Below, piece after piece: positions 13,644 through 55,786 of a stretch of 64,000 bases of DNA. How positions within the stretch are numbered: position 1 is the first letter of the stretch; every line of letters starts with the position of its first letter. The notes beneath the pieces were generated by a model, which saw nothing but the letters and a program-made list of their open reading frames with translations, was not told the origin of the DNA and made no database searches. The stretch is from Antedon mediterranea. Lineage: Eukaryota; Echinodermata; Crinoidea; Comatulida; Antedonidae. Location of the stretch: positions 11,492,601 through 11,556,600 of the forward strand of contig NC_092677.1 of NCBI RefSeq assembly GCF_964355755.1. The letters run 5' to 3'. The position numbers were made by a program, and so were the translations under genes.

Positions 13644-15290
13644 TTATAAAAAATATTGTGCTCGAATTTCTTCATCGCCTTTTTTCTCTAGTTGTGTAAT
13701 ATTCTCACACGTAGGTTGCTCAAAAGATTCTTCCATATCCCACTCGTCTCTATATGGTTCACCCTTAACAATACAGAAGTTATGAAGCACACAGCAAGCG
13801 ATGACCATTTGGCCGACGTTACGGAGAGCATTTTCATTACGTTTTGCTAGTACGTGCCACCTTCCTCGTAGCATTTTCAACGACCTCTTTACCATATTTG
13901 CTTTAGAGAGTTTATCATTGAATTCTTGCTGTTTATCTGTATTAGCATCTGGAAATGGTGTGATCATCCAGTTTGTGAGTGGGTAACCAGAATCTGCTAT
14001 CAACGTCACTGGTGGTATATCTGTGCCACTTAATTCTTCAGTCACCTGCAGATTTTACAGAGAGCCATGATTACATTGAGAGTTGTAAAATCAACTAAAT
14101 AGGTACCTTTTAATTTTCTAATTTTCCAATAACCTAAGACCCACTGTATACTGTATGTAAATTATACATCAGCAATCGCTTATTTTTAAAGATGTATTGT
14201 CCCGGGCCTGAAAATGAATTATTTACCTTAAAAAATCAAATTGACTGGAAGTCAATGGTTTTTTGGTTAAACTGTTTATTTCTAATTGCAAGGTTTAAGA
14301 GAACATTTTTATAAAAACAGAGTAATTAGAGATTTACCTTTGGGAACAGCTCTTCATTAGTTCCTTTTTGGTACAACTTTGAATTTTTCAGAACCTCATT
14401 CTTTTTTATGTTCCCTGGCCATCCTACGTCAACATTTGTGAATCTATATTAAAAAATGAAATATAATAAAAAATTTGTTTGTTTCTCCTAAAAAAAACCC
14501 CCAATTCTCACAATGCATGAATCACGGAAATTTTTAAATGGACATATTACCTTAATTTATCGTCAGCTACTGCTTGTAGTACAATTGAGTGCCACCCATT
14601 TTGATTTTCATAATCATCAGGATGATCATAAGGCATTGCGATGGGTACATGGCTTGCATCTACAGCACCGGCACATTGCACAATGCCATATTTCTCTCTG
14701 AAGCCTCTTATCGTCTCTACAAGACGATCTCCTTCTGGCCAAATTATATATTCTTCACGTAACATATTCACAATTCCATTGCAAACTGAATTGACGTTCT
14801 TACAAGCTGTAGACCGTGCAACCCCGAAAAGTTTTGAAAGCGCTCGTAAGTTTTCACCTGTCGCTAATCTTGACAGAGCGATTGCGACACATTTATCAAC
14901 AGGCAGGTTGCGCCCAAATGGATTGTTTTGCCGTTGAATCAACCTCGTTAATGTTTCACAAAGATGTTCAAATGTTTGTCGTCTCATACGAAAGTGTTTA
15001 AGCCAATCTTCGTCGGTGAAATTTTCAAGAACGTTAACCCACCACTCATCACTTCGTGGTATAACCACCCGTTTAGGTATTGGAATGGTGCACAACCGAA
15101 GGTACCCATCCACCACAAGCTTTTCTTTTTTCTTCATATGCTGTAGGAATACCACTTTCCCAATATCACCGAATGGTGTTGGTCTCCTACCACAGGTACG
15201 AGATAACCGGTTCCTAACTATGTCATTGCTTGTATCAAATAAGTAAGCAGAAACAATAGTCATGACTTGGCCAAATTCTTCTTCATTCAT
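13644..15290 (-). CDS. Harbinger transposase (HARBI1-like nuclease), DDE_Tnp_4 family
   Basis: Three exons join in frame on the minus strand: 15290-14551, 14443-14338 and 14045-13644, giving 415 residues with GT-AG introns. An N-terminal helical region with an HTH-like stretch near residues 150-190 (LSRLATGENLRALSKLFGV, then SACKNV) precedes the catalytic domain. The first catalytic Asp is D211 in AGAVDASHVPI, and the second is D252 in FTNVDVGWPG at the start of exon 2. The ADSGYPL block is at 299-305. Where relatives have Glu in VVExAFGRLKGRW, this protein reads MVKRSLKMLRGRW, so the third catalytic residue appears to be Lys335. Family members cut and paste DNA with 3-bp target duplications and work with a Myb-like partner, which is what lies divergently 400 bp away. 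Frames and splice sites are intact. With the third acid missing the enzyme may be inactive, or the gene may be a domesticated derivative. Confidence 0.9.
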
Positions 15291-15689
15291 TGTACTCCTG
15301 TGTATTTAGTAACTATTCTACATAGACTGTGGCACACTCACAGAGAAAGCAACACACTAAAACAGGCAACAGTGTAGTCTAGAGTAATATAATTCTCTAA
15401 GCCATGTGTTAAACTGAAATACTGTGGCTGTACTGCTATTCAAACAACAAGCAAGTATGTACTACTGTATAAATAGAGTACAACTGCTAAATCCATGCTT
15501 CAATGGTTCTATGAAGCTTAAGTAACCAATCACAGACTTGCATTCTTATCAGTTAGTTGACCTCAACAGGATATCAATAAACATCACAAGCTGACCTCAT
15601 GTTACACACAAGCATGGTGGCACTCATGGTTTGATGTCACAAACTAAATTCTTTGTTTTCTTTTACTTGAACAGAAATTCAAAATTACA
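15291..15689. promoter_or_regulatory. Shared upstream region of the divergent Harbinger pair
   Basis: Only 399 bp separate the two start codons, which face away from each other, so this stretch should hold the 5' leaders and promoters of both genes. No TATA box or initiator could be assigned with confidence. The plus-strand ATG at 15690 follows a CAG-like acceptor (TTGAACAG at 15668-15675), so an untranslated first exon is possible. Confidence 0.45.
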
Positions 15690-18600
15690 ATGAACTGCAG
15701 TGTCTGGCATGAAGATGCAACATTTGCATTGATTAGCATATGGGGAGATTCAAAAATCCAGGATGGATTTGACGGCACCAGAAGAAATGCATCTACATAC
15801 GCCACCATTCAAAACCGACTGAAACAATTGGGCTACCATTTTCAAGTTAGACAAGTGATAAACAAATGTAAAAGTTTACGTAAACAGTATCATATGATCA
15901 AAGAGGAGCACAAGAAGACAGGATCTGGGCCAATGCATTGGCTGTATTTTAACAAAATGGATGCTGTATTCTGTAAAGAGCGTGAAAGGAAGAAAAAAGT
16001 AGCATCACCACCAGCAGTAGCAACCAATTCTGAAGTCTCGTCAGCAGTAGCTGGATTGGGTAGCAGTAATTTTACAGAAACTGATGCTGTTTCAGAATGT
16101 AGTGGTATGTATTTATCATAATGTGGGCAAGTAATAATGTGGTTGTGACATTCATTATGGGCAAACGGTAAACCTCACAGGAAAAAGGAATTTAACTTGA
16201 TAAGTCATAAAAGTAGTAAATACTGTACCTTGTTAAGAAAAAAATAATGTTTTTTATAATATTTGTACAACTCTGGGTATTCAAAACAATTCATTTTACA
16301 ACACTGGAGATCAGTAATTGGATAACAAGGGATAATGAAACAAAAAGCCATTACATAACCTTCAGTGCATAAGCAGGAATCTCAAGGTCACTTAAGGATT
16401 ACCCTCCTTTCTTCCTGATGGTTTTGTCATCATCATAATCAAGTTACAGGTCTCTTGCATTCCATTAAAGGGAATACATCACATCTGGGGTTAAAGTGAT
16501 TAAGAATAAAACAAATTTGACATTTCTTCTTTATAAGGAAGATAAATAGAGATAAAATATATAAAATAAACTGAACATGATATAACTATAAGCACGTCCA
16601 AGTACTGCACTCTTACATTTTATTTCATAAAAACCTACATACTAGATAGGGCATAAATGAGTATTTTCCAGTCTTCACTTTTTTAGAAACAATGTGTTTT
16701 AGGAATTTGTAAATGTATTTTATTATTATAGGTAATTTAAATCTGCTAATCAAATAAATAAAAGAAATATTTCTTACAAAAAACGCCGCTCATCTCACGA
16801 TAACTACTGTCTAAATGCATCTCAATATTTATCAGCAAATGTTTTCATAGACTCTTTTCCCCACTATGTGCAATCCCAGTTTCCAAATACCCATTTTTTC
16901 AGTCGTAGTATTAAACTATAAGCTACCGCATGGTAATTGTCTCCCAATGCTTCCGTTCTCTTGAATATAACTGCCTAAAGAGCGCGAAAATCACACAAAA
17001 TAAGTGATAAATAATACTAAACAAAAATTACAGTATTAATTTTTGCTTTCTGTTCTTTTTTAGATGTTTCATTTCCAGAACTTAATTTTTCATTGGATGA
17101 CGAGCCAGATCATGGTAAATTTGCATAAAATTTAAAAAAAAACCAGCAAAATTCCTTAATTAATTACACTTGAATTATCAATTTTAAAATCGTACACAAT
17201 CACATACGCAGTACTGCGGTTTTGTCCAAGGGGGCCTGTTTATACAACACGCTGAATCAACATGGTTCTATGTTGACGTTTTGTATAAACAGAAATGGGT
17301 TCTGTGTAATTACTAAACCACCTGGAAAGGCTACCTGAAAAAGCTACGTGAGGACCAGCCAGGTTGTAAGTAGCCAAAGGGGACAAGTTGCCCTTTATTA
17401 TAGCAGCAGACAGCCTACGCTCGTGAGTCTGAATACATTTCATCAAATCTACGCCCCTAGACAACAGGGAATTTTCTCTAGGATCTTTTATTTTCAATTT
17501 TCTTGGGGCAGTAGTAATTTTTAGTAAGACTTTTACCAGCTACATATTTAAAAATATCAATCATTTTAAATTTGTTTATCAATAGATGACGGGGCTGGCT
17601 CATCAAAAGATGTGGAAATTAAAGAAGGTGTGTATATATTTTGTTTACTGTAAAAAGAAAAAGAAGCAGTAATTCCTGTATACTTCTTTTATGGTAAAAA
17701 AAACTAACAATTTTTATTGTGAACAATAGATGCTGAAGGCTTTTAAAATAGCACCCTCTATGTTTGGTTGTATTTATAAACAATAATATAAATAGCACCC
17801 TCTATGGTTTGGTTGTGCTTTTATGCTGTTTCCAGATATTCAATTTTCCAAACCTCTGCTTAAAACTGAACTCAATACTTGATTTGATTTTAAACTACTG
17901 AATGGTGGAGTGTTTTAATGTTAAATATTTTTAAAATAAATTTGTTATTAATATTATGTCATTGTAGATGTTGGCCAAACAGAAGAAAGTGAATTTTCAG
18001 CTCAAAGTAAGTAGTAAAGTGTTTAGCAGTAAAGCTAAACATAATAATAAATGAGAAACCACCTTGTTATTTTTTTTTCTCTCTTTTGTGTCATTAACCA
18101 CAACTTTTATTCATTTCATCTTCAATACAAGGATTTTATGACTTCCCAATATCCCTCGTTATTTTCTTATACCTTCTTGATATTTATACTTTGTTTTATC
18201 TTTTTATTTAATATAGTTATGTTTTCAGAACTGGCAACTAACCAACAACCTGAGGAAACAGTGGACGCCGCAGCTCAAAGTAAATATTCTATCATTTTCA
18301 AAGAATTAGATCTAATTGTAAACATATTCATAAGAAGCCGTAATAAGCTTCATACTAGGGTTCTGGGTTCCAGAAAGAGTTTTGACTTAAAGCCCCATTC
18401 CCTACGTTTTTTAGATCTAATTTAAGATCACAAACTATATTTAATGTAAAAATAATACTATATGGTCCTATTGCGATAACTTTTTTCGTCTTTAAACGGT
18501 TAAATTGTGAAAAATAAATCGATTCTAATAATTATAGCGGCCCGCTATAAATCCCAAAATGCATTGCGCGCGGATTGATATTTTTGTTTTTCACCTGTAA

Positions 18601-24539: not shown

Positions 24540-27500
24540 TGTTGATTTTATTTGATTTGATTTATTTCGGAATCAGTACATAAAAAATCACAGACAAACA
24601 ATTAAAAATAGCAAATATAAAAAACCATGAATAAAACAAGAAAGGATGCCAAGGATAACTCATAAAAGTCCTCTACGGACTTGTTTCCAATGAGGTCCTT
24701 TGAAACAACAGCAAAAAGACATACAATGAAACATATAAAAATTACAAAAAAAAACAGCAAAAGGACATAAAAAAAAAAGAAGAAGCGCTTATAAAATAGT
24801 TTCAAGTGCTAGTGTGCGTTCCTGTAGATACTTTTTAACTTTACTTTTAAAACAACAAACAGTTTGTGATTCCTTAATGTTAATTGGCAAGTTATTCCAT
24901 TCCTTAATTGCATTGTAAAAAAAGGTAACATGTGCCATTGGCTTGATGGTTGGAATTCTAAAATTAAAATTGCATCCCCTAGTATTGTAATTATGACTGT
25001 CTGAAATTCTAATAAAACGATTGCATAAATAAGGTGGACAACAATGATTATATATTTTAAAAACATGACAGACTCTAAGAAATTCGACACTTGGACTTTT
25101 AACATACCAACGTCGTTTAGCTGAGATTGACCAATATGTGATCGGGGACCTAACTTTTTTATAAAACGAACCATTTTGTTTTGAGTCGTTTGTAATTTTG
25201 ATTTTAAATTTTTATTTACCGTAGAAGACCATGAGCAAACCGAATAATCGAACATCGGTTGGATTAAAGCAAAACTAAGAATTTCAGCCTGCCGTTTGCT
25301 TTGTTTATAACAGAGCGGGCAATGACGTCATCTGATACATTTTGGTCAATCTCAATACCTAGATATTTGATAGACTTTGATCCATTTATAGTCGTTCCAA
25401 AGCAATCTATATTGAATTCGTTTACTTTGCTTAATCTACGTTTAGAACCAAACAAGATGCATTCGGTCTTACCCATATGAAGCGAAAGTTGATTGTCGAT
25501 CAGCCAATTATTGCATGATACGAGATTGGTTTGGAGTTTAGATTGGATTGAGATTGGATCTTTATGGGAGTAAAAAATTGCACAATCGTCAGCGTACAAA
25601 ACAACTTTACAATCACTTTCGATACTAGATGGTAGGTCGTTCACGTAAATAAGAAACAAGAGAGGACCCAAGAGGCTACCCTGGGGTACTCCACATCCAA
25701 TCTCAATAGAGTCCGATTTGGTGCCTTTAATATCGACAATCTGATTTCGCCCAGACAGGTACGCTTGAAACCAACCGATAGACCGGCATCCTAGATTTTT
25801 ACACAAAATATTATGATTGACCGAGTCAAAGGCCTTATAAAAAAAAAACCATACCCGTAAATAAACCATTTGACATTTGAACTCTAAGGTGATCTCTAAG
25901 ATGAATAAGACATGTGTCGTTAGAAAATGATCTACGAAAACCGGATTGACCCGCGGATTGATGATCGTAAATAAGTTGATTCCTTTCAAGGTAATCGGAA
26001 ACTTGTATATTTACCACCTTCTCCAGAATTTTCGAAACTGAGGAGAGAATGCTTATAGGTCTGTAATTGTTAGTCTCAGTTCTGGAATTCTTTTTGTGAA
26101 GGGGCGTGACTTTTGCAAGTTTAAAATCCGAGGGAATACGTTCGTATTTAATGGAAAGGTTAATTATATGTGTTATTGGTATTTTAATATTGGGAGCGCC
26201 GTCTCTAAGAAATTTTGCAGGAATCTGATCAAGGCCTACACTTTTAGATGGGTTGAGATTTCTCAATTCCTCTTCGATAAGGCTCTCATCAATTTCTTCG
26301 AGAGAAAAACCAGAAACATGTTTGATTTTGCTATTATAGTAATTTTTAAAGGCATTAGAACCTACACTAAAAAGGTTACTGGGAGAAGGCAATTTCTTAA
26401 TTAATTCGGAAGCAATATTTGCGAAGTATTTATTGAAATAATTTGAAACTTCGCTTTCATTATGGCAAAGATTCCCATTAACATCTAACGAAATAGTGCT
26501 ACCCTTTTGTGGCTTATTTTTATATCCCAAATCTTTGAGGCATTTCCAGAGTTTATTGGGATTATTTTTGTTAACTTCTAACTTATTTAAAAAACATTCA
26601 GATTTTGCTTTATTTATGTCCTTTTGTATGCGATGACGCAACTTACGAAATGCATCATAAAGGTCTGACCTATTTGGGTTATTCTTGAACTTATTTAATA
26701 GCGAGTCTCTTTCTTTTATGGCACATAATATTTCCGGTGTCATCCACTCTTCAGATTTTTGTTTTAGGCGCACCTGTTTGAGAGGAGCCATTCTGTTTAT
26801 AAGGGACAAGAATATTTTTTTTAAAGAGCACCAGGCAAAGTCCACATCTGATGAGTCGAGAACAGGCGACCAATCAGATTGTGTTAATTGCTCATTAAAA
26901 ATATTAACATCATTGTTCTTAAGTGAACGAATTTTGATAGTTTTATGTTGGTTAAATTTATATTTTAAAGATTTACGAGTACAAAACGGTAGGCTGTGGT
27001 CACTAATGCCTACATGGATGACACCCGATTGCGATTTTTTTTTGCGAATGGTTACATATAATAATATCTAAAACTGTTGATGTATACTTAGTAATTCGAG
27101 TTGGTTCCTTTATCAGATGGGTAAAGCTAAAAGTTTCAAGAGTTGTTTCTAACATTTTGTATATTGTTGCAGATTCATTTTTCAAATTAATGTTGAAGTC
27201 ACCAAGGACAATAACTTCGACATCAGGTCGAATAGCTGCCAATATATTTTCAAACGAGTCAATAAATAGCTTATATGATTGACTTGGTGGACGATAAATT
27301 GATCCAACAACAATAGGGCGCGTCCTTGGAAGCAAAATTTCCATCCAAATTGATTCAATACTTTCAGAATCCAGGTCCCGGCGTTCGCGAATAGATAGTC
27401 TTTCCTTGACAAAAAAACAAACACCTCCTCCAGACCGATTTCGATCTCGACGGAAAACGTTGTATCCTTCAATGTTGAGCTCCGCATCAGGAACAGTATT

Positions 27501-28075
27501 ATACAACATAGTTTCACATATAGAGATAACGGCTGCATTGGTTTTTATTGCAAGAAGGCGGAGTTCAGACATCTTTGGCAGTATTGACCTTACGTTAAGA
27601 TGAATGAAGTGAAGGCCCTTTCCATTAAAAACATCCTCCAGTCTTCCTCCAGATTGAGATGGATTCCGGGTCCCGGGTTTGGAGAAATATCACCACATTT
27701 AAGCAAGATAGCAAAGAGTAAGCCTTTCCCTCTAAGGTCAAGAGTCCGGTGTATGTGGGACGTACTCTTCCTCGTTCGATAATTACCGGAAATATAGGCA
27801 GACGATACAAAAATGATACTTGTTGCAGCGACTGCAGAGTTAGCGTTGGAATGTTTGCACCTGGTAAAAATGGCTGATATGTCGTATCTCTCGTCGGAGG
27901 TTGCGTTAAAAAACTGGTCAACAAGTTGAAAATGTTTCACATTGTTAATAAAAAAAAAACAAGCACTGATGCATGGATAATAAAGGAAGCCATACTGAAA
28001 GTCATATTGGAAGGTTACCTGTATGCCGTATCTGTCCAGCAAAATATCGCGGCGCCGAAACCGTTCAAATTCATT
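24540..28075 (-). mobile_element. Non-LTR retrotransposon (CR1/L2-like): endonuclease and reverse transcriptase, frameshifted
   Basis: On the minus strand, in order: an N-terminal region with a 2A-like motif (28042-27590); an exonuclease-endonuclease-phosphatase domain (about 27620-26990) with ETML, GGGVCFF, VLGDFNINL and, after a frame change, GISDH; a linker; a reverse transcriptase (about 26300-25300) with NYRPISILSS, KAFDSVNH, CGVPQGSLLGPLLFLIYVND and the catalytic YADD; and a C-terminal domain with FDYSVCSWSS (25255-24809). The 3' end is an AAATAAATCAAATC-type simple tail near 24540-24580. At least four frame breaks separate the blocks: just after the 2A-like motif, at a 9-10-base homopolymer near 27034-27043, at a T run near 25840-25849, and near 25255-25270. 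The copy is therefore dead, or its homopolymers are mis-sequenced. The clade call is from motif style only. Confidence 0.88.
27668..27694 (-). other. 2A-like motif GDISPNPGP in the retrotransposon
   Basis: The minus strand encodes GDISPNPGP, preceded by a hydrophobic LLFAILLKC stretch, the usual setting of 2A oligopeptides that cause ribosomal skipping between G and the final P. The usual consensus is D-V/I-E-x-N-P-G-P; here Ser replaces Glu, so activity is uncertain. 2A-like sequences upstream of the endonuclease domain have been described in echinoderm non-LTR retrotransposons. Confidence 0.65.
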
Positions 28076-40800: not shown

Positions 40801-42153
40801 CATTATAAGCCTCATCATTTTTTCTGAAACATTCTGTTTCTGCCTCTGTTCCATTTTATTTCATTATAGCCTCTATATTACAACTGGGACTGCGATGTTA
40901 ACAATATAGGAACTTGACCTTACCTCAGTCACAGATGGAAAATCGTATTACCCATAAAACACTGAACCGGAAACAAAACTAAGATATCTCTATTAATAGA
41001 GATATCTCTATTAATAGAGATATCTTAGTTTTAAATAGAGATATCTTAGTTTTAAATAGAGATATCTCTATTAATAGAGATATCTCTGTTAATAGAGATA
41101 TCTCTTTAAAAAACTAAGATATCTTAGTTTTTAATAGAGATATCTTAGTTTTAAATAGAGATATTTCTACTAATAGAGATATCTCTATTAATAGAGATAT
41201 CGCTATTAAAAACTAAGATATCTCTATTAAAAACTAAGATATCTCTATTAAAAACTAAGATATCTCTATTTAAAACTAAGATATCTTAGTTTTTAATAGA
41301 GATATCTCTATTAATAAAGATATCTCTATTAATAGAGATATCTCTATTAAAAACTAAGATATCTTAGTTTTAAATAGAGATATCTTAGTTTTTAATAGAG
41401 ATATCTTAGTTTTTAATAGAGATATCTCTATTAATAGAGATATCTTAGTTTTAAACTAAGATATCTTAGTTTAAAACTAAGATATCTTTATTTCCGAATA
41501 AATGACAGCTTGGCGCGCCATATAAAACAGTCCAAAATCAAATGATGATGATGATGATGAATGCTCTTGTAGGTCTGGTCATTTGCCGTTTAGCAGGTCA
41601 AATGATGATGATGATGAATGCTCTTGTAGGTCTGGTCATTTACCGTTTGGCAGGTCAAATGATGATGATGATGAATTGCTCTTGTAGGTCTGGTCATTTG
41701 CCGTTTGGCAGGTCAAATGACGATGTTGATGAATTCTCTTGTAGGTCTGGTCATTTGCCGTTTGGCAGGTCAAATGACAATAATGTCTTATTCTTTTTCC
41801 ATATTTCTAAATTTGTCGTTCGTTCTTATAGCATATAAACGGGCCTCTTATAGACTACAGTAATTCTCACGATAATAGTATTATCGTGAGATGAAAAACT
41901 GCCTTCTTATAATGGTCACTCGTTGTGGTGTATCGGTTTTACACTGCACTAATCCTAAGTCTATTCTTCCCTTTGTGTACGAAAGCATAGCCTACACACA
42001 AGAACAGTAGATTGTTTTATATAAGCTATTATATCGGCAGAACTAAAAGTAAAACAATTCTCCTTACCATAAATATATTACAGATATGACTGAAATTCCA
42101 AGCGTGACCGAAAAAAGTATCTTTGTCCACAAACCACTACTGTATTTCATCAT
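28852..42153 (-). CDS. Alpha-2,8-sialyltransferase (ST8SIA family, GT29)
   Basis: Golgi type II membrane enzyme that in this family adds sialic acid from CMP-sialic acid in alpha-2,8 linkage. Seven minus-strand exons join in frame: 42153-42068, 35536-35261, 34880-34745, 34015-33906, 33142-33050, 30736-30492 and 29066-28852, giving 386 residues, a normal family length. Exon 1 encodes a short cytosolic tail and signal anchor (about residues 11-30). Exon 2 is stem with several N-glycosylation sites. Sialylmotif L is at about 174-220 ([15 protein letters not shown], then RCNAPP, LNPSIV). Sialylmotif S covers about 312-338 ([10 protein letters not shown], then [13 protein letters not shown]). Motif III is YHYYED (349-354), and the VS motif H-x4-E is His361 to Glu366. 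The expected cysteines C177, C327 and C386 are present. The GFWPF form recalls vertebrate ST8SIA1, 5 and 6 rather than the polysialyltransferases. Exon 1 was joined by reading frame and membrane-anchor logic, so it is less certain than exons 2-7. Confidence 0.9.
29997..30115. repeat. Partial Harbinger-type MITE
   Basis: Begins TTAAGCGTGGTTCTCACTAG, one end of the MITE family described at 33197-33375. It contains two copies of CGCAATGCAAAGTGCCGTAT. The other end is missing or degraded. It lies in the last intron of the sialyltransferase. Confidence 0.55.
30206..30417. repeat. Harbinger-type MITE copy
   Basis: AGCTTGGTCCCCCTAGCGAC at the left and CGTTACGTTGCTAGTGTGGG at the right are inverted copies of the family ends, with CpG-rich inner sequence matching the copy at 33652-33871. 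It lies in the last intron of the sialyltransferase. Confidence 0.65.
31003..31716 (-). mobile_element. Non-LTR retrotransposon ORF1 fragment with coiled coil and SGNH esterase domain
   Basis: On the minus strand, a coiled-coil stretch (31716-31535) leads into a linker and an SGNH-hydrolase domain. The GDS block is seen as [12 protein letters not shown] and a later block as [10 protein letters not shown]. Such esterase ORF1 proteins accompany CR1-like elements. An in-frame TAA at 31534-31536 breaks the protein, and the 3' part is cut off near 31003. The fragment lies in sialyltransferase intron 5 and is inserted in the same direction as the host gene. It may derive from the same family as the element at 24540-28075, but this was not shown. 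Confidence 0.75.
31717..33049. other. Rest of sialyltransferase intron 5; nothing recognised
   Basis: AT-rich intron sequence between the ORF1 fragment and exon 5. No exon, element or tandem repeat was recognised. Confidence 0.4.
33197..33375. repeat. Intact Harbinger-type MITE with TAA target duplication
   Basis: AGCTTGGTTCCCACTAG at the left and CTAGTGGGAACCACGCT at the right are inverted ends flanked by TAA on both sides (33194-33196 and 33376-33378). Three-base TWA duplications are the signature of Harbinger elements. The interior is rich in ACGCAACGCAA words and their complements. It is 179 bp and lies in sialyltransferase intron 4. Confidence 0.85.
33409..33556. repeat. Half copy of the longer Harbinger-type MITE
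   Basis: The right end CGCTAGTGGGAACCACGCTT is present. The interior (GGAACCGACGACGCAATAGT, ACGCACGCGGAGGAAAACAC) is the reverse of the copies at 30206-30417 and 33652-33871. The left end is lost. Confidence 0.65.
33652..33871. repeat. Intact Harbinger-type MITE, longer subfamily
   Basis: AGCTTGGTTCCCAATAG and CTAGTGGGAACCACACT form the ends, with TAA on both sides (33649-33651 and 33872-33874). It is 220 bp. It sits about 30 bp from the splice donor of sialyltransferase exon 4 (exon end at 33906). Confidence 0.85.
34149..34435. repeat. Two Harbinger-type MITEs, one inserted in the other
   Basis: A copy starting AGCTTGATTCCCACTAG near 34152 is cut at about 34255 by a second complete copy (34256-34435) that starts AGCTTGGTTCCCACTAG and ends CTAGTGGGAACCACCAT followed by TAA. 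The nesting shows at least two rounds of insertion. Sialyltransferase intron 3. Confidence 0.75.
35808..36213. repeat. Left GATATC dyad array of the fold-back element
   Basis: About 21 units, each centred on GATATC and spaced 18-21 bp apart. Only two arm types occur on either side of each centre: GAGATATC with its TATT-side spacer, or TAAGATATC with its GTTTT-side spacer. Every combination of arms is seen: symmetric TAGAGATATCTCTA, symmetric CTAAGATATCTTAG, and both hybrids. Confidence 0.9.
40976..41490. repeat. Right GATATC dyad array of the fold-back element
   Basis: Same two arm types as the left array, about two dozen units, with a few decayed centres (for example GATATTTCT near 41163). 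The order of units is not the mirror image of the left array, so the two arrays have changed independently since the element formed. Confidence 0.9.
41538..41778. repeat. 57-60-bp minisatellite, about 4 copies
   Basis: Units start with TCAAATGATGATG at 41538, 41598, 41655, 41713 and 41770. Length differences come from the number of GAT triplets. Lies in sialyltransferase intron 1, just outside the fold-back element. The apparent open frame is a repeat artefact. Confidence 0.9.
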
Positions 42154-44652: not shown

Positions 44653-47600
44653 TTAATAAGTTTTCTTTTCTTGGTAGACAACCATGAATGTTTTTTGGAA
44701 GTTGATTGTAAACGTTCCTGAAAAAAAAAAGAAGGTATATTGTTATCTCAAAATAATTTGAAGAAGGAAAATCTTCACATCAATAAGTTTTATAGAAATA
44801 TACATTTTTGAGTGTGAACAATTCTAAAAAATTACACAAATAAATTTTATTCGTTGGTTTTAACACTTAATATCTTTTAATTTCTACTATGTTTTCAATA
44901 TTAGGCCAAACATCAACCAGGTACTGATAGACTACTAAATCGAGTTACCACAGCAAACAGTACATATCGACTTAGACTGGACACTTTTGATCTGGCCAAA
45001 GAGACATTCTGGTATCCAAAATATGTTTTTAATGGCTAAAAAAGAATGTTGGACCTCAAGAAAAGATGGTTTTGGAAGAGCTGGTTTTCATTGTGGTTAG
45101 TAATGGGAATAAATGACGCAGGGTTAGACCAAGGAAATCTAACAACAGGATGCAGAACTCCGGAGATTAGATCTGTGGTTGCACACCCTTTAATACAGAC
45201 ACTGTACTCCACAGAAGAGAATATGTACAGTACTGCTGGTACTTGTCGCAGCCAGACATAAGATCAGAGGATTGTTACGAGTTCCTATCTTTGCAAGGTG
45301 AGCTCAGTGTTCTGTTGTTGGATACCTTGGTTAGACCGAGTGTACATTATGAAAAAGTTTAGTACTTACTCATGTAATCAATAAACCATTGTGGCTTGTT
45401 CTGCCAATAGATAAACAAAAAGTAAACTGGGATACCGGCTAAGGTGATAACAAGCCCTATACAGCATTCCACAGGAGCAGAGTAGAGCGACACGCCAACG
45501 ACAAAAACACAGCAAAGCAGAAAAGTAATCGGTACTATCATTGGTACCTAACAAGAGAACGTTAGGATATCACTGGACTATGTTTTGATGAATAAACCTT
45601 CATTTTTGGCTCATGTAACTTATTTTGCACTTTTTGTTCCACCTAGTCTTCAGAAGATGGTGATGACCCATTTTGTTGTAGCTCTTATTTATAATGGCCC
45701 AAAATTACAGTTCATATTCTGCAAGTCATTTTATGTTTTAAAGAAAAAAGTAATATATTGTTTGAAGGTTTGCACGGCACACCACGTACAGGTTCTGTAT
45801 TAACTTTCACCAAAAATTAGTCACAAAAAAAATCATTTAACTGAAATACAGATGTTTTTTTGTTCAAAAAATAACTTTGGACTTCCGGCCAAAGTTTTCG
45901 ATCAAAACATATCTTGTTTGGCTACTCTGTGTATGCATAATCATAAAACTTCTTCCGACGAGTTGTAAACAATCCTAATTAACATATCATGCATAATGCA
46001 TACTCGTGTTATGAAATCTTTGTTTACTTTCCCTCGCGACAATTTTCCAGATGAACTGAAATCAAACTAATTTACCTGTTAATTATGTAAACTTGTTTTT
46101 GGCTCAAATTTTCGACTTAAAGTGAATAACTTTAATATTACTTTGATATGGCCAATTTAAATTAAAAATATTTTGAGCTTCATTTCTTTTGTCTTTAAAA
46201 GAAAGAAAAGGACATTAGTAAGAAAAGAAATTTCTATCTATTTAGGATATTTTCTATTTTTGAATAAATGTTGAAGCAGAACTGTGGAACAATCTTCTAT
46301 TCAAAATTCACCTTCTATAGACGTTTTCAAAACCCTTTCAAAACATTTACTTATTTTAAATCAGATACTGTTGACTATAATTATGCATAACAAAAGAGTA
46401 CACCTATGCATTGTTAGCCAGGAATCTTAAATGTGACCCATGGTCATTGTATAATCAGGGAGTTGTTAACAACTCCCTGGTATAATAAAGCAGCTTTGCT
46501 TTCAGTATAACCTCCAGCTGTTTACCGAATCACTCAGGAAGAAGTGATTTTATTTGTGTCTTTTGTGGGCTCATCCCACTTTCATTCTTATACCTCCCTA
46601 CTTACTGTAGGTGTTATAGAAATAACAACATACAGTAAACAAATCATAAAATCTATTTAAAGCATGTTTTTTTATTTTAGTTTAAAGACTTTTTTTGAAT
46701 AAATATTTACCGAATCACTCAGGGAGAACAACAGGGATTTATTTGTCTTCAATGGGCTCGTCCCACTTTCATTTTTTTGTCATTATAATAGATTTTTAAC
46801 ATATATTTATATAATCAACACACAGATATCACAGGATATATATATATATAGGATTAGAATAAATTTATACACATATATGCATAGCAATAACATATTGTCA
46901 CCCTGAAAAACAATTTTTTGTTGTTGAATATGCCATTTTAATGTTGCATAATAGTTATATCCACTTTGCCCAAAAACTGAATAAAAAATTTACTTGAAAA
47001 AAAAACTGTTATTTAAAGCAAACAATTTTCAAAATTGTTGCTGCCAGCCAATGGGTTTTTGGATGAATTTAACTGTTTATCTTGTCATTTTATAATTGAA
47101 ATCATTTTTTTTTCTATGGAAATTATTAACTTTTATAAAAATACAAAATGGCCTATTGAAATTCTGATTTTATCAATCTTGTTGTTAACTATACGTCAAA
47201 TGGGAATGCACCAGTGACGGATGCAAGAAGAGGGGTGGTTTCAGGCGGTCACATGAGAAGGTCTAATAATGGGGCTCTTGGATCCATCTATTAATAAGAC
47301 TTTACATACCGAAAAAGGACGTTCAAGTTCTGGGAATTTCCATCTCCAATATGGAATAACAGCTACAGTGATTCCAATAAACAGGAAGCCAGTAAAAGAC
47401 AAATAATTGATGAGACTGTACACACTGTCACCCATTAACATCAGCAAACAGATTGGAAGCTAAATGATGAAAAAAACATATCATGAGTTGAAACATAATT
47501 TATGATCGGCCATAGTAGACAATTTAAAAAACAATAGTATAAAACAAAATATTTTCCAAACACGAACAGATTTTTTTTCGTACACGAAAAAAAGTACTAT

Positions 47601-50600
47601 TAAACGATCGTTTAATAGTGCGTACTATTGCACGCCATGTGATCCACATTCGTCCAATTAAATGACAGGAATTTATTCAGGTGTTATATAAAGATATTAT
47701 AGTGAACTATAATATCTCTATCTCTATCAAAAGTACTGTAACAATGCCATTTAGGATATGATTGTACATGGAAACATAGGTTAAACCCATCAATTTGCTG
47801 CTACATTATCAAACCTCATTAAAATAACAATTACACAACATACAATCAAACATAATCGAAATGCATTATAAATTCTTAAGTTATCGCAAGAAGCCTTTAA
47901 CAGAATTTACAAGGGTCACTGAATATGCCCTTCAACTTTACACAATGTGCTCTCTAGAGCTGTACACCCTTTAATAGTTTTGCAGTCAATGAGTTCGTAC
48001 CATTATTGGTAATAAGTCAGAACATACACTAAATTGACCATAGTACATAAAACATTTAATATAGCTATAAAAACACACATGTTATGAAATCTGAAATGTT
48101 ATCAAATACAAGTTCTGTCAACTCTTGTATTTATAGACATTTATTTTGGAAGTTATTGTGTCTATGAAAGAAATAGGAGACAGCAAATTCCATAAATTAA
48201 TGTATCTATACAATATCTTTGCTATGACAGGTGTTATCATGGTCCATTAAGTTTCTTGAGAGAGGGGGTGCTTCCCTTTGGGATGTAAATGTATACATAT
48301 ACAGAAAAATATGGCAAATAAATATAAAATGTGTCTGAAACTGAACAGGTAAACTTAACTTTTGTCTGTAGGGGTGAAAAGTTCATGACCTCTGTCATCA
48401 ACAACATACTGGTGGACATCTACTTTATTTTTGTATTGCAATTTTTGACATTTTTATTTTATAAGTTCTAAAGTCTGGCTAGGTATAGAGAGTTAAACGA
48501 CACATTTTTTTAAGGGTTTTTCCACCAAAATTCATATAGAAAAAGAAGGTACAGCTACAGAACAAAATAAAATGTGAACATTACCATACACAAGATGGCT
48601 GGTGTTGGCGTTCTTCTCTTGACGTCAATCATAGCAATGACTGTTGGGAAGTGTCCTTCCCTGGCAGCAGCAAAAACACCTCTGGAGACAAAGGTCAAAG
48701 GTAACAAAAAATATATACATCTAGTACTACTTTTACTATAATATTCGCAACTTCTTCTTTCAGTCAGTCAGGTCGTAGCCACCAGTATGGTTGGTAAGAT
48801 TTCAACCTGACCACTTTTTCACAAAGACATTTGACAACACTTGGCTTGAACAGAGATTTTTCCTTTTTCTTGCGAAAACCGGACTTTCTCGTGGCTACAT
48901 CAGTAAAAGTTTTATTACAAAAAGGTAGATACCTCATACATTGAGATATGATTAGTTATTGTATTAATGCTGAACTATTCATTTTAAAACTAGGCTAAAT
49001 TCTGAAGCAATTCTTTTTATTGTCAAAGCGTCAGATATACAAATGCATATTCCATCTTCCAATCTCTTTCTACGACAAATTCCAATTTCTTTTAAGAAAC
49101 AGTTTCTACTTCTCATGATCAAAATGAAAATCAATTCACTATAATCTCAACTCAACCTTCTGTAAAATGTATACAAAACCTCCGCTACCCCAAGGATTTC
49201 ATCTTTTTGCATTTTTAAACATATTGACAGTACCAATTTAAAACAAATTTATTACGCCAGTAAAAATGCATTATATTACGTATTATACTTTTTAAATATA
49301 TTGCCAGAGCAAAGTGTATATACACTTTTGTCAATGGATCAATGGATAATCAATTACGGCATATTAAATGTTGTTCATTCCATGGAGATTGTTCCCAGTC
49401 ATGGTTTATAACAACTATTAAATTGCTGTCTGTGACCTTTCAAATGTTATATAGAAATGTATTAATTTATACATTGAAGGGGTATATTACAAAATGGTGT
49501 AGCAGATATACTGTCCTCTTAAAAAAATATTTGAATAGGCCATTTTAATGTCACATAATAGTTCAATTCACTTTCACCAAAAATGGCATCGAAATTACTT
49601 ACCTGATGAAAACCATAATTTAAAGAAAACTAATAATATACTGACAGCCCATTGTCTGGAAGTCAATGGGTTTTTGATTAAATTTAACTTTTTGTTTTGG
49701 TCTTAATCATTATTTAACAATTTTTTTTTTTTTTTTTTTGAAAAGTCAATAGCTTTTCCATATTCAAGATATTCATCGTTATATTTCATATTGTTGTGGA
49801 CAATGTGCCATCACGTTTATTTAGAAAGTTAAATATTAAAATAGATATAATGTACAAATCTGACATAGCATTACTGAAGCAAAGAATAGTGACGGAGCAA
49901 TTCAAAATATGATATAAATTACTAAATGATAATATGCTGTAGATGAGAACGACAAATTAAGAAAAATAGTAAAAATGATTGAGAAAGAAAAAACAGAGAG
50001 AAAAAACGAAAATGAAGGGAAACAAACATACTGTAATTTAAGAGAAAAGAAGCAAAAAAGGTGCAAAAAATAGAATAAATGAAACAAAACAGGCATGAAG
50101 TTTTGTACTAATATATCTCCATATACATTTTGGTCTTATGGCTTTTAACTATGCACTTAATATAGTAATTATTGTTTGCATTGTATAAATAGATATACAG
50201 TATATTGAAATAATTGCCATGCTAAATTGAATATATTTTGAGCCAATTTTAAATAATAGGTAACACTGACATTTTGCAGAACTGTTTCAAAACCAACTGT
50301 ATGTCTAAATAAACTGAAATAGAATGGGCTGCATTCAGAAAAAATGTAGAAATAAAAAGTAAAGAAAGATAAAAGCGAGGGATTGCATTTCAAATGGTGC
50401 AGAAGGAAGGATAATGTAAAAAACTTACATTGCGAAATGTCATGATTCTAATCATAAATCATGCAGTCTTGAAACATTTTTTAAGATGTTAAAATTTAAA
50501 TTTAAAAAAAAAATAATTTGTAATTATTCAAAACGGAAAGAAAGAAATATTTCTTTTTATTTGTCAAATGTTTGAGTGGGGTTGCGTCAGTGTATCCTTG

Positions 50601-53600
50601 CCATTTGATTGGGTAATTTTGTGTCATGTGACATCAAATGCTAATTAGGACATGTAATACGGTTCATTGCAACCTAAAACATTTCTTTTTTAAATGCGTC
50701 TGAAACAAAATGGTTAAAATTATGATTAGAACCATGCGGAAAGTGACATTATTTAACAGGAATTAAATTTGTATAAAAAGACATGGACGGCAATTATACG
50801 GTACCTGGAGTCGCTCAACAGGCACCCATTGAGGGAGCCTGCACAAGAAAGCGACACAAAAACAGGTACTATCCACAGCATTACCCCATACAGATCTGAT
50901 GCAAATGACTGGGGAGAAAAAAGAACGAAACGACTTTGAAATATATTTAGTTTGTAAAAGCTTACCTTGAGTCACTCAACAAAGATCCGTTCAAAGAGCC
51001 TGCACAAGAGAGAGAAACGAACACTGGTACGATCCAAAGCATCTTGCCATACAAGTCTTGACCAAATGACTGTGAAATTGCATCAACAACAAACTAAATT
51101 TGAGACATTCATCCTCAAATTTACTTTTGGTGAACTACATTCCTTACCAATGACTGAATTTTTGTAAATAATAGTGTATATTTTTAAAATGATAATGATT
51201 GCCAGAAGTTAGTATAAGTTGAATTTGTTAGTAAAATCAATTTGTATTATAAGATAAATAATAATAGATCTATATTTTTGTATTTTCATTGTATCAATGT
51301 GTTTTGTTGGGGACCCCTTTGAAAACAAGCCTTTGTGCTAAAAGGGTTTCCCCTCCTTCCATGTTTAATTTCTCAAGTTTAATGTTTCTTTTATTCTATG
51401 TATTTATTTTCATTCATATTTTATGCTGTTTTATAAATTGTACTGTATATTTATATAAATATTACTTACTGTATTTGTTTATTTTTGTAATCATTCTTAA
51501 CAATAATAAGTGAATATGTCAAGTGGTTTTATCATTTTGCCTATGTCTCAAGTAGTAAATGGGCAGCGAGTTATTATAACAAGGCCTTCAAGCTAAGGCA
51601 GTGCAAAAGCAATAATTATTGTGAACATTTTTACCAAAACAATTACTAAAACAATGGCCAATAACAAATGTGGGTAGCCCACCGACAATAACCACTATTT
51701 TGGAGGGATTTTCAAAGTTTAGTCGGGTATGGCATACTCAAAATAGACAACACGTGTACAGGATATATAGCCTGTTTAGTATGTAAATAGGTCAGTTTTA
51801 TTACTCTGCTAACATTATTACCATACACCTGATTGTAGGTCACAAGAGTACCCACTGCATTCTATTTATGTCATAACATTTTGCATTATATCTACTTACA
51901 GTCATGAAATCAATCCATTCTCCTCATAGGCCAGTAGACTAAAAAAAATCTCAGTCTGGCACTCTCTAAAAGCTCTGTCTACACTATCAAACTAGATCAT
52001 ATCAACATTTGATTTTGCCATGCAAACCTTCAAACAATATACTAGTTTGACAAAAAAGTGTGATTGCCCAAATATGGTACTCATATGCCCAAATATGTAG
52101 TGATATGACATCATGTCCATATATGGGCACATTTTTTTTGTCACATAAAGATGTAGTGTAGACAGAGCTTTGGAAATTTAAAAGTATTTAATTTGCATAA
52201 ACAACACTACAGAACACTACGGTATTTCAACAAATTTATTTGAAAAAACTTTTTCTCCTTTCACTTACAACAGCTACTGCATTGGAGTTAAGAAGTTCTT
52301 GTGGAGACAATTGAGCAAAATATGCCACATTAGTTGCCAGGTAAATCACAGTTACCAAGCCCATTGAAATCATGATACCCAGAGGAAGATTTCTATTGAA
52401 AATGAAAAGAATAATAATCATTATTTGTGAGGAAAAAAATAAAATAATGATTATGCAGAGAATTATAAGGGTGGTCACTAATTTATACTTTGCATCGACA
52501 AATGTCCGGAATGTATGGCTCAAACAAATTGGCCGGGCTAGTCTTGCATTTTAGTCTAGAAAAAATACCAACCATGCCCAAATATCAATTGCTAGTATGT
52601 AACCAGTTGTAACTAGTTGTATGAAACCAGTTGTAACTAGTTGTATGTAACCAGTTGTAACTAGTTGTGTGTAACCAGTTGTAACTAGTTGTGTGTAACC
52701 AGTTGTAACTAGTTGTGTGTAACCAGTTGTAACTAGTTGTGTGTAACCAGTTGTAACTAGTTGTGTGTAACCAGTTGTAACTATGTGTGTAACCAGTTGT
52801 AACTATGTGTGTAACCAGTTGTATGTAACTAGTTGTATGTAACCAGTTGTAACTAGTTGTATGTAACTAGTTGTATGTAACCAGTTGTAACTAGTTGTAA
52901 CTAGTTGTATGTAACCAGTTGTAACTAGTTGTATGTAACCAGTTGTAACTAGTTGTATGTAACCAGTTGTGTGTAACCAGTTGTAACTATGTGTGTAACC
53001 AGTTGTAACTAGTTGTATGTAACCAGTTGTAACTAGTTGTATGTATAAACCAGTTGTAACTAGTTGTGTGTAACCAGTTGTAACTAGTTGTGTGTAACCA
53101 GTTTTAACTAGTTGTATGTAACCAGTTGTAACTAGTTGTATGTAACCAGTTGTAACTAGTTGTATGTAACCAGTTGTTTGTAACCAGTTGTAACTATGTG
53201 TGTAACCAGTTGTAACTAGTTGTATGTAACCAGTTTTAACTAGTTGTATATAACCAGTTTTAACTAGTCGTATGCAACCAGTTGTAACTAGTTGTATGTA
53301 ACCAGTTGTGTGTAACCAGTTGTATGTAACCAGTTGTGTGTAACCAGTTGTAACTATGTGTGTAACCAGTTGTAACTAGTTGTATGTAACCAGTTGTAAC
53401 TAGTTGTGTAACCAGTTATAACTTGTTGTAAAACCTTACCTTGAAGGGTTAACAATTTCTTCTGTGATTTGTGAAACATACTGCCTGTGAAGATTCATAC
53501 ATTTTATTAATCGAAAAATAATACACACAATAATAAAAGGTTATACATTAATTTAATATGTTAAAGCTCATTGTCTGGCAGACTATTAAAGCATACGGAT

Positions 53601-55292
53601 ATACTATAGTTATTTAACATCATAACAAATAATTTACATACCATCCTGAATATGCAAATAAGCCTGCATAAAAAGCCAGTGGAATTTTTGTGACATCTGT
53701 ATTTTCAGCTCCAGTAAAGGCATCTTTTAAATGAGTGGTTTTGCCTAAAATTAAAAACAGAACATCATGAATATACAATAGGTTTTTCAAGACATTATTT
53801 CAAATTTTTCAATAAAGATGTTGTTCATATAGAGTTTTGCGGCTTACATGGCAGTTCACCAGGTACATTTCATACTACCTTTCTGTAGCAACATATAATG
53901 TATTTAATCTACCACAAAATGTTCTTCTTTAAGTTCTTTCATGAATTTGTCACATAAAATTTGGCATCACAATGTATTTATCCTCTCGTAATTGAAAAAT
54001 ATCAATATAGCAATAAATTAGAACGCAATGCTAAAAGGTGTGTGTACAAATCAATATAATATGCCTTAAAGAGTAATTTGCACGATTGTTGTCGTCTTCA
54101 ATATCATTATGACGTCATATAGATATCTAGTAGACGTCTGTCCGGTATATCTGTGATTGAATCAACTGAAAAAACACTTAACTTTGACACATGTAAACTG
54201 TTAAGGTGTATATCCTATCCCAAGGGCTGTATGTATCATAACTACTTTACACTTGGTGATATCAGTTTCTTTCTATCATATCATGGATTGCATTACCCTG
54301 TATAGGCTAGTAGAATGGCGTCCTTTGCTCCCGATTATCTAGTTTAAAATAAGTTGACCATTCAACGGATGAGGCTATCAGCATGGTCAATCGGGCACAT
54401 AAGTTTTCTATAAGGTGGTCGACCATAGCAGAAATTACTATTTCCTATAGGCACAGTTGACTGTGCATCAATTTCATTTCCTATGGGTACAGCGGTCAAA
54501 AAGTTGATCAGGTGCCTTCATTTTTTATGTCTCCTTAATATGGGTGTCCTCTAAATAGGGTGCTAAAAACAGTGTTAAAACAGATATTGCCCTTCAATTG
54601 TTTTACAGGAAGTGTATCAATCGGTATGTGCTCTGAATAGGGTTGAGTGTCTTAGTATTAAAACATACAAATATTGCCCCGTTTTATGTGAAATAAAGTG
54701 TCTCTCTTTAATCGGTATGTGCTCTGAATAGGGTTGGGTGTTAGTGCTGAAACATACAGATAATGCCCATAATTTGTTTTATGTGATGTGTCTCTCTTCA
54801 ATCGGTATGTGCTCTGAATAGGGGGTTGGTCTTAGTACAAAAACATACAGATATTTCTCAGAATAGCAATGTCCTAAAGAAGGTATTCTATTATTTATTG
54901 AAGAATTTATAAGAAAATTATATCTAAAAGATATTTTATGACCTGCACAGTTTATTAAACAATTTTAATTGAAAATATGTGAAGCACATCACTCTAGAAT
55001 AATGACAATCTACGTGAAGGATTTATTCTTGTATTCATTTGATAATCGGAACAAGACGTAACAACAATAACGTGAAGATTCATTAAAACTAAGACTTTGT
55101 AATTAAAAGCAGGTGTAGAATTAATCAACTGAAAATGTAATCAAAATAAATATGTAAATATGTTAAATGTGACAAATTGTTCTCTTCAAAGGAAATATTG
55201 ATTTTTATATAATACATTCAGGTTTCTTGTAAAAGAATGTGCAAAATTAAAAATAAAATCAGGCAATAAAATTAATTTATACATCTTGTATT

Positions 55293-55328
<36 letters not shown>

Positions 55329-55786
55329 CTGTTTCTACTAAATTCAAAACTGTATTGGTAGTGTGATCATACCAAAAGTTCACTTTTACTCAAAATGCTG
55401 AAAATTATTTTAAAAGTAGGTTATTGGAAAAGATATTCCTCTAGGAATTTATTTATTAGCCAGAGTCAAAATAATGATCAAGTCCACAGAGAGCCAGCAA
55501 TTGGAATAAGTAATTGAGAGACGATGACTACTTCATTAATTGTTTAATGATATAGTATAATATATTAGACTTTTTTTCTAAGTATTTCTTTACGAGTACA
55601 TAAGGTCTGTTTTGAGAATTGTACAAAGTTCTTTAATAAATTAATGTACAATAAAATTACCTTGAAAAAGTAGTACGAATCCAGTAATGATGATAATGAT
55701 GAGACCAATTGTCTTAACAAATGTTAACACAGTCTGAACGCGAGTTGTCCATGTTACACTTACACAATTCAAGTAGAAGACGCCAC
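44653..55786 (-). CDS. SLC7 light-chain amino-acid transporter (LAT/y+LAT-like), 5' exons outside window
   Basis: Membrane exchanger of the SLC7 family, whose members normally pair with an SLC3 heavy chain at the plasma membrane. Nine coding exons per transcript join in frame on the minus strand: 55786-55661, 53744-53642, 53484-53440, 52392-52269, then either 51069-50966 or 50908-50805, then 48681-48585, 47459-47310, 45547-45370 and 44717-44653. They give the last 329 residues. Family landmarks in order: [124 protein letters not shown] and a short C-terminus ending QEKKTY. This corresponds to roughly TM5 to TM12. The first exons, with the GSGIF-type motif and the disulfide cysteine, were not found up to 64000 and must lie beyond the right edge. 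Substrate class is not decidable from this part. Confidence 0.93.
46459..46480. repeat. Perfect 22-bp palindrome
   Basis: AGGGAGTTGTT joined to its exact reverse complement AACAACTCCCT, in an SLC7 intron. Confidence 0.85.
46523..46776. repeat. Diverged direct repeat pair in an SLC7 intron
   Basis: ACCGAATCACTCAGG followed by TTTATTTGT, GGGCTC and CCCACTTTCATT occurs at about 46524-46592 and again at 46709-46776. The TAGGTGTTATAGAAATAACA stretch between them resembles 44238-44305, so this is part of a dispersed family. Confidence 0.6.
46915..47160. repeat. Dispersed repeat family (about 250-300 bp), first of several copies
   Basis: Words TATGCCATTTTAATGT, GCATAATAG, AATGGGTTTTTGGATGAATT and an internal T run recur in the same order at about 49533-49760 and 62235-62520, with partial copies at 59170-59260 and, lacking the first half, 14205-14275. 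No terminal repeats or tail were defined. The copies at 46915 and 49533 are in SLC7 introns, and the 14205 copy is in the transposase gene. Confidence 0.65.
47575..47700. repeat. Second copy of the hairpin MITE family
   Basis: CGTACACGAAAAAAAGTACT, ACGATCGTTTAATAGTGCGT, ATTGCACGCCATGTGATCC and AGGTGTTATATAA match 19457-19575 closely. Only the right part of the family is present. SLC7 intron. Confidence 0.65.
49533..49760. repeat. Copy of the 250-300-bp dispersed repeat
   Basis: GGCCATTTTAATGTCACATA begins the match to the copy at 46915. TGGAAGTCAATGGGTTTTTG and a long T run follow. Confidence 0.65.
50805..50908 (-). other. SLC7 alternative exon B (104 bp)
   Basis: Encodes [18 protein letters not shown], then [16 protein letters not shown] and the first two bases of an Arg codon. 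A pyrimidine-rich stretch with CCAG precedes it and GTACCG follows. Length and both phases equal those of exon A 57 bp away. It differs from exon A at four of 35 residues. Including both exons in one mRNA would shift the frame (208 bp). Confidence 0.85.
50966..51069 (-). other. SLC7 alternative exon A (104 bp)
   Basis: Encodes [18 protein letters not shown], then [16 protein letters not shown] and the first two bases of an Arg codon. CACAG precedes it and GTAAGC follows. It agrees better with remembered relatives at the Gly of SFG and the Ser of LNGSL, so it may be the ancestral version. It covers the segment around TM8. Confidence 0.85.
51969..52171. repeat. 203-bp MITE with exact 18-bp inverted ends
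   Basis: AAAGCTCTGTCTACACTA at 51969-51986 is repeated in exact inverse at 52154-52171. The inner sequence (ATGCCCAAATATG, TGACATCATGTCC) recurs at about 57797-57910, next to a matching AAAGCCCTGTCTACACTA end, and at 62905-63035. It lies in an SLC7 intron, about 100 bp from exon 52392-52269. Confidence 0.85.
52596..53430. repeat. 24-bp minisatellite, about 835 bp, in an SLC7 intron
   Basis: Units of TAACCAGTTGTAACTAGTTG plus four bases are built from two related 12-bp halves (ACCAGTTGTA and ACTAGTTGTA). Many variants drop a half-unit. The array ends about 10 bases short of the 45-bp exon at 53440-53484, directly on its donor side. Confidence 0.95.
54550..54860. repeat. About 93-bp tandem repeat, 3-4 diverged copies
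   Basis: ATCGGTATGTGCTCTGAATA recurs at about 54622, 54709 and 54799, each followed by a GTGTTAG-like word and ACATACAGATA. A more diverged first copy starts near 54550. SLC7 intron. Confidence 0.75.
55297..55323. repeat. TA microsatellite
   Basis: An uninterrupted run of TA dinucleotides in an SLC7 intron. Confidence 0.9.

Follow-up and report, generated by a model that had tools for sequence, protein, structure and literature searches.

An old tandem duplication of the TM8 exon in an SLC7 light-chain gene of the crinoid Antedon mediterranea, with predicted mutually exclusive splicing

Does a single amino-acid transporter gene of Antedon mediterranea encode two transporters that differ within one transmembrane segment? 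The question is raised by two adjacent, closely similar exons in a stretch of 64,000 nucleotides (hereafter, the window; C8:11492601-11556600 of a 354-Mb assembly), which a sequence-only reading had interpreted as mutually exclusive TM8 exons of an SLC7 transporter. When assembled from GT-AG sites and the reading frame, the gene comprises 10 exons on the minus strand, with exons 2-10 inside the window. Exon 1, carrying the start codon, lies ~1 kb past the right end of the window (C8:11558057-11557556) and is followed by exons 2 (window positions 55661-55786), 3 (53642-53744) and 4 (53440-53484), by a single-copy exon 5 of 124 nt (52269-52392, donor at 52269), by the pair of interest, denoted 6A (50966-51069) and 6B (50805-50908), by a single-copy exon 7 of 97 nt (48585-48681, acceptor at 48681), and by exons 8 (47310-47459), 9 (45370-45547) and 10 (44653-44717), the last of which ends at the stop codon. 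Transcripts assembled in silico with 6A only or with 6B only each contain an uninterrupted ORF of 497 aa. A long minisatellite (52600-53420; units like CAACTAGTTACAACTGGTTACATA) occupies most of intron 4. Elsewhere in the window, minus-strand transposase-like ORFs (DDE_Tnp_4) adjoin a Myb/SANT-like plus-strand ORF (13644-16121), a putative PIF/Harbinger-like element pair; a broken non-LTR retrotransposon on the minus strand (25264-28075) retains ORFs for endonuclease and reverse transcriptase, spread over several frames, and short palindromic units (TATCTCTATTAATAGAGATA / AACTAAGATATCTTAGTT) form a dense array at 41000-41500. No known RNA families were detected in the window.

Judging from sequence similarity, the gene encodes a light chain of the heteromeric SLC7 amino-acid transporters (L-type/xCT-like), so that the original assignment to SLC7 is borne out. 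In phmmer comparisons with the PDB, the best relatives of the 497-aa protein are xCT, LAT2 and LAT1 (E values of 1e-133 to 1e-164 over residues ~29-495), and the amino acid permease family PF13520 is matched with 227 bits against a cut-off of 27. By far the best NCBIfam model is TIGR00911 (L-type), with a score of 570.5 bits that falls under the curated cut-off of 701.8, and the protein is therefore classed as a light chain, without assignment to LAT1, xCT or another named subtype. In the phmmer alignment, the Cys of the motif FYPICEPP is placed opposite the Cys of FPTCFPP in extracellular loop 2 (EL2) of LAT2; we take it to be the equivalent of LAT1 C164, the Cys that bonds to the heavy chain.

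Both 6A and 6B are 104 nt long and had been located correctly to the base. They are entered in phase 0 and left two nucleotides into an Arg codon, with GT-AG borders (ttcacag/TCATTT...CTCAAG/gtaagc for 6A and ctccccag/TCATTT...CTCCAG/gtaccg for 6B), in agreement with the intact splice sites and identical phases claimed for them, and neither contains a stop, a frameshift or a damaged splice site. The encoded peptides are identical at 31 of 35 residues and differ by exactly the four substitutions originally read (G/A, Q/S, K/V and S/C). At the DNA level, 76 of the 104 positions are identical (73%), and the likeness ends at the exon edges, with flanks matching at 11/30 and 9/30 positions. Age and selection estimates come from one within-gene comparison with 25 synonymous sites, in which pS is 0.83, that is, the silent sites are saturated, and pN is 0.093. 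The 28 nucleotide differences, counted over 34 full codons, change four residues, compared with ~17.6 expected if they were random (minimum 11 in 5000 simulations). Given the saturation of silent sites and the unrelated flanking introns, the duplication is old and both copies are under strong purifying selection; we accordingly interpret 6A/6B as an old tandem duplication of the TM8 exon, with both copies constrained. A search between exons 5 and 7 revealed no third copy.

If both exons are functional, how could a transcript be limited to one of them? Joining 6A to 6B, which had been predicted to break the frame, indeed leads in silico to a stop at codon 344, and skipping both leads to a stop at codon 319, in each case more than 360 nt ahead of the last junction. 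The locus thus displays the hallmarks of a mutually exclusive pair: tandem homologous exons of the same phase with intact splice sites, a length that is not a multiple of three, and double inclusion and double skipping that are both non-productive. The 57-nt intron separating 6A from 6B (50909-50965) is shorter than all 34 introns sampled beside the matching exon in sister genes; those introns measure at least 83 nt. From base 32 onwards, up to the terminal AG, the 57-nt intron contains no adenine, the positions of A delimiting a mainly pyrimidine tract ahead of the 6B acceptor (50911-50934, minus strand). Any A branch point for 6B would therefore lie at most 31 nt from the 6A donor, and the likeliest candidates, in CTAAAT and TTCAAAG, fall within 50935-50948 (minus strand). 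The steric limit on splicing is ~50 nt, and OGDH exons 4a/4b are kept mutually exclusive by branch points located 25-41 nt from the upstream donor (PMC7969005). A steric block, with the branch point at most 31 nt from the 6A donor, is likely to be the cause of exclusivity here as well. The acceptors of the two exons score similarly; the 6B donor (CAGgtaccg) reaches 3.6 bits versus 9.5 bits for that of 6A and ranks 41st among 43 sampled donors. With so weak a donor, 6B could be seldom used, and our guess is that 6A may serve as the default, with 6B as a regulated choice. Competing RNA duplexes among the three introns were no more abundant than in shuffles, in a single-sequence comparison of low power.

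The consequences of the swap for the protein can be gauged by numbering exon positions onto LAT1, whereby positions 22 and 29 correspond to C335 and S342, and positions 3, 4 and 9 to residues 316, 317 and 322. The placement of the segment in TM8 is supported, and exon 6 ends at the equivalent of LAT1 R348, before the TM8-TM9 intracellular loop. Position 29, Ser in 6A and Cys in 6B, is a substrate-pocket position equivalent to LAT1 S342, AdiC W293 and GkApcT M321; the alignment of CAT and light-chain sequences is ungapped here, and it brings the serine of the CATs and residue 321 of GkApcT to this position. Among 16 single-copy sequences, comprising 13 sister exons of the same genome and three human proteins, it is occupied by G, S, A, T, M, L or N. 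Five positions never vary in the single-copy set (V18, S21, G24, N27 and R35), and both 6A and 6B retain them. LAT1 S342 and C335 contribute to substrate binding, with S342G being less active (PMC6023973, PMC5983779); a gating role of S342 is considered open in one review. In GkApcT, the M321S substitution shifts the IC50 for arginine from 6 mM to 11.4 uM (PMC5803215). Positions 3, 4 and 9 would, to judge from the fold, lie where EL4 passes into TM8; in the course of transport, EL4 moves against the heavy chain (PMC11828871), and in b0,+AT it serves as a lid and makes heavy-chain contacts (PMC9110406). Of the two changes that had been suggested to alter transport, Ser/Cys affects a known pocket position; Lys/Val, at the extracellular start of TM8 and at a site that ranks among the most variable in the family, is the weaker functional candidate. 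The 6A/6B differences sit on more variable positions of the family than expected by chance (P about 0.004), a bias that fits functional tuning but also weak constraint.

With considerable confidence, we favour a model in which a light-chain gene carrying an old duplication of its TM8 exon gives rise, by mutually exclusive splicing, to two proteins four residues apart; one gene would then probably supply the cell with two transporters. Splicing from 6A to 6B would be physically blocked by the 57-nt intron, every candidate branch-point adenine of 6B being too close to the 6A donor, and stray transcripts with both exons or neither would be cleared by nonsense-mediated decay (NMD). A regulator would pick 6A, with its stronger donor, or 6B, and the isoforms would differ in substrate affinity or selectivity, chiefly through Ser/Cys at the pocket position equivalent to LAT1 S342; the three changes at EL4 and the start of TM8 might have a second effect, on gating or heavy-chain contact.

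Several other readings have to be weighed against this one. Both exons might be used and yield near-equivalent proteins, selection merely preserving each ORF; the identity of 31 of 35 residues, the location of three of the four differing positions among the most variable of the family and the mild, conservative nature of the Ser/Cys change are all compatible with such redundancy. However, very old copies with saturated silent sites would hardly both have been kept unless both were needed, and position 29 is known from AdiC, GkApcT and LAT1 to bear on selectivity, so that we consider redundancy rather unlikely. Far less probable, in our estimate, is that the gene works through 6A and that 6B is a poison or rarely used exon that, itself or through double inclusion, lowers expression via NMD: the disparity between the donors and the early stop produced by 6A+6B point in this direction, but the protein sequence of 6B has been kept, with dN/dS far below 1, its acceptor is good, and a poison exon would have no need for a perfect TM8.

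No supporting point was found for the idea that one copy is decaying into a pseudo-exon or stems from an error of assembly, and we give this possibility practically no credence. An allelic or assembly duplicate (collapsed haplotypes or false duplication) is ruled out by the 73% DNA identity, the saturated silent sites and the unrelated flanks; the same saturation and flanks, together with splice signals and a reading frame that are intact in both copies, rule out a decayed pseudo-exon. The model of two alternative TM8 exons, each translated into a functional transporter, is the one that we retain.

Is such a duplication unique to this gene? The matching exon is single in 18 of the 19 sister light-chain genes of the same genome for which the exon 5-7 stretch was read, the exception being L053. 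It measures exactly 104 nt with the same phases in 13 single-copy sister genes, and in one sister gene the variant is two residues longer. In four clustered light-chain paralogues (L063-L066; C5:20642000-20686000), the match to the TM8 exon ends after 21 residues, which suggests an extra intron inside TM8. L053 (C8:26976500-26984500) carries two copies of 104 nt each on the minus strand, at locus positions 4084-3981 and 2293-2190, flanked by a single exon 5 and a single exon 7. These copies are identical at 76/104 nt and 30/35 residues, with intact splice sites and saturated silent sites, and are separated by 1.7 kb, a spacing that makes the steric argument inapplicable to L053. In a rough tree built from the exon only (35 columns), 6A and 6B pair with each other (97/93), and the L053 copies group with the neighbouring gene L054 (97/94), L053b being closest to L054 (97/90). 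By this grouping, the duplications in the two genes look like separate events, and that in L053 may be older than the split between L053 and L054. Duplicated exons were not seen in CAT-type genes of the same genome, where most CAT-like matches are long single-exon ORFs. The CAT-like permeases at C3:28576513-28625693 and elsewhere on C3 and C4 (L001-L011) are single-exon ORFs of 528-584 aa, several of them clustered on C3; they look like an intronless, possibly retrocopied, expanded family.

LAT1 (SLC7A5), LAT2 (SLC7A8) and xCT (SLC7A11) are full-length homologues of the Antedon transporter, and we know of no TM8 exon pair in any of them. Our literature search, which left most subscription papers outside its reach, yielded no report of a TM8 exon pair in SLC7 light chains; a paper on C. 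elegans AAT-6 was rejected as a precedent, since it uses the same words in another sense. The sequence-only reading, to which no such pair in vertebrate SLC7 genes was known, is wrong on this point, as illustrated by CAT-2A/2B of SLC7A2 and exons 6a/6b of zebrafish slc7a1a. CAT-2A and CAT-2B differ between TM8 and TM9, in the stretch that sets affinity, with R369 and N381 of CAT-2A among the deciding residues (PMC5803215), and teleost slc7a1a/slc7a1b possess alternative coding exons 6a/6b that encode the second half of TM8, the first half of TM9 and the part in between (PMC7584565). In view of these pairs of the vertebrate CAT branch, which cover the adjoining segment, the claim of novelty must be cut.

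If both isoforms are made, one gene would provide two transporters four residues apart, with one of the differences at the position that governs selectivity in AdiC and GkApcT and is of importance in LAT1; this would be a natural minimal test of TM8 tuning in the family of two drug targets, LAT1 and xCT. The L053 pair and the vertebrate CAT pairs further suggest repeated evolution at one structural spot. It is quite possible, although we put this forward tentatively, that the TM8 exon is a recurrent target of duplication, hit at least twice in light chains of this crinoid, once in the 6A/6B gene and once in L053, and on a separate occasion in the CAT branch; the exchange of the pocket-lining helix through splicing would then have evolved several times as a means of tuning amino-acid affinity or selectivity without a new gene.

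Among known systems, OGDH 4a/4b resembles 6A/6B in combining an old exon duplication with a short intervening intron and a branch point under the ~50-nt limit; the protein is unrelated, and the branch points have been mapped in OGDH but are inferred in the Antedon gene. Zebrafish slc7a1a/slc7a1b likewise contain a pair of similar alternative exons, 6a/6b, in a vertebrate SLC7 gene; however, the exon boundaries and the family branch are different, and the overlap with 6A/6B is confined to the inner half of TM8. CAT-2A/CAT-2B, two isoforms of an SLC7 gene that differ beside TM8, belong to the CAT branch, with 14 TM and without a heavy chain, and swap the intracellular TM8-TM9 region, whereas 6A/6B swap EL4-TM8, including a pocket residue. 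The gene described here is not of the CAT family, and its alternative segment is not the TM8-TM9 loop; the 6A/6B pair resembles the CAT-2 switch in its mode of action without belonging to that class.
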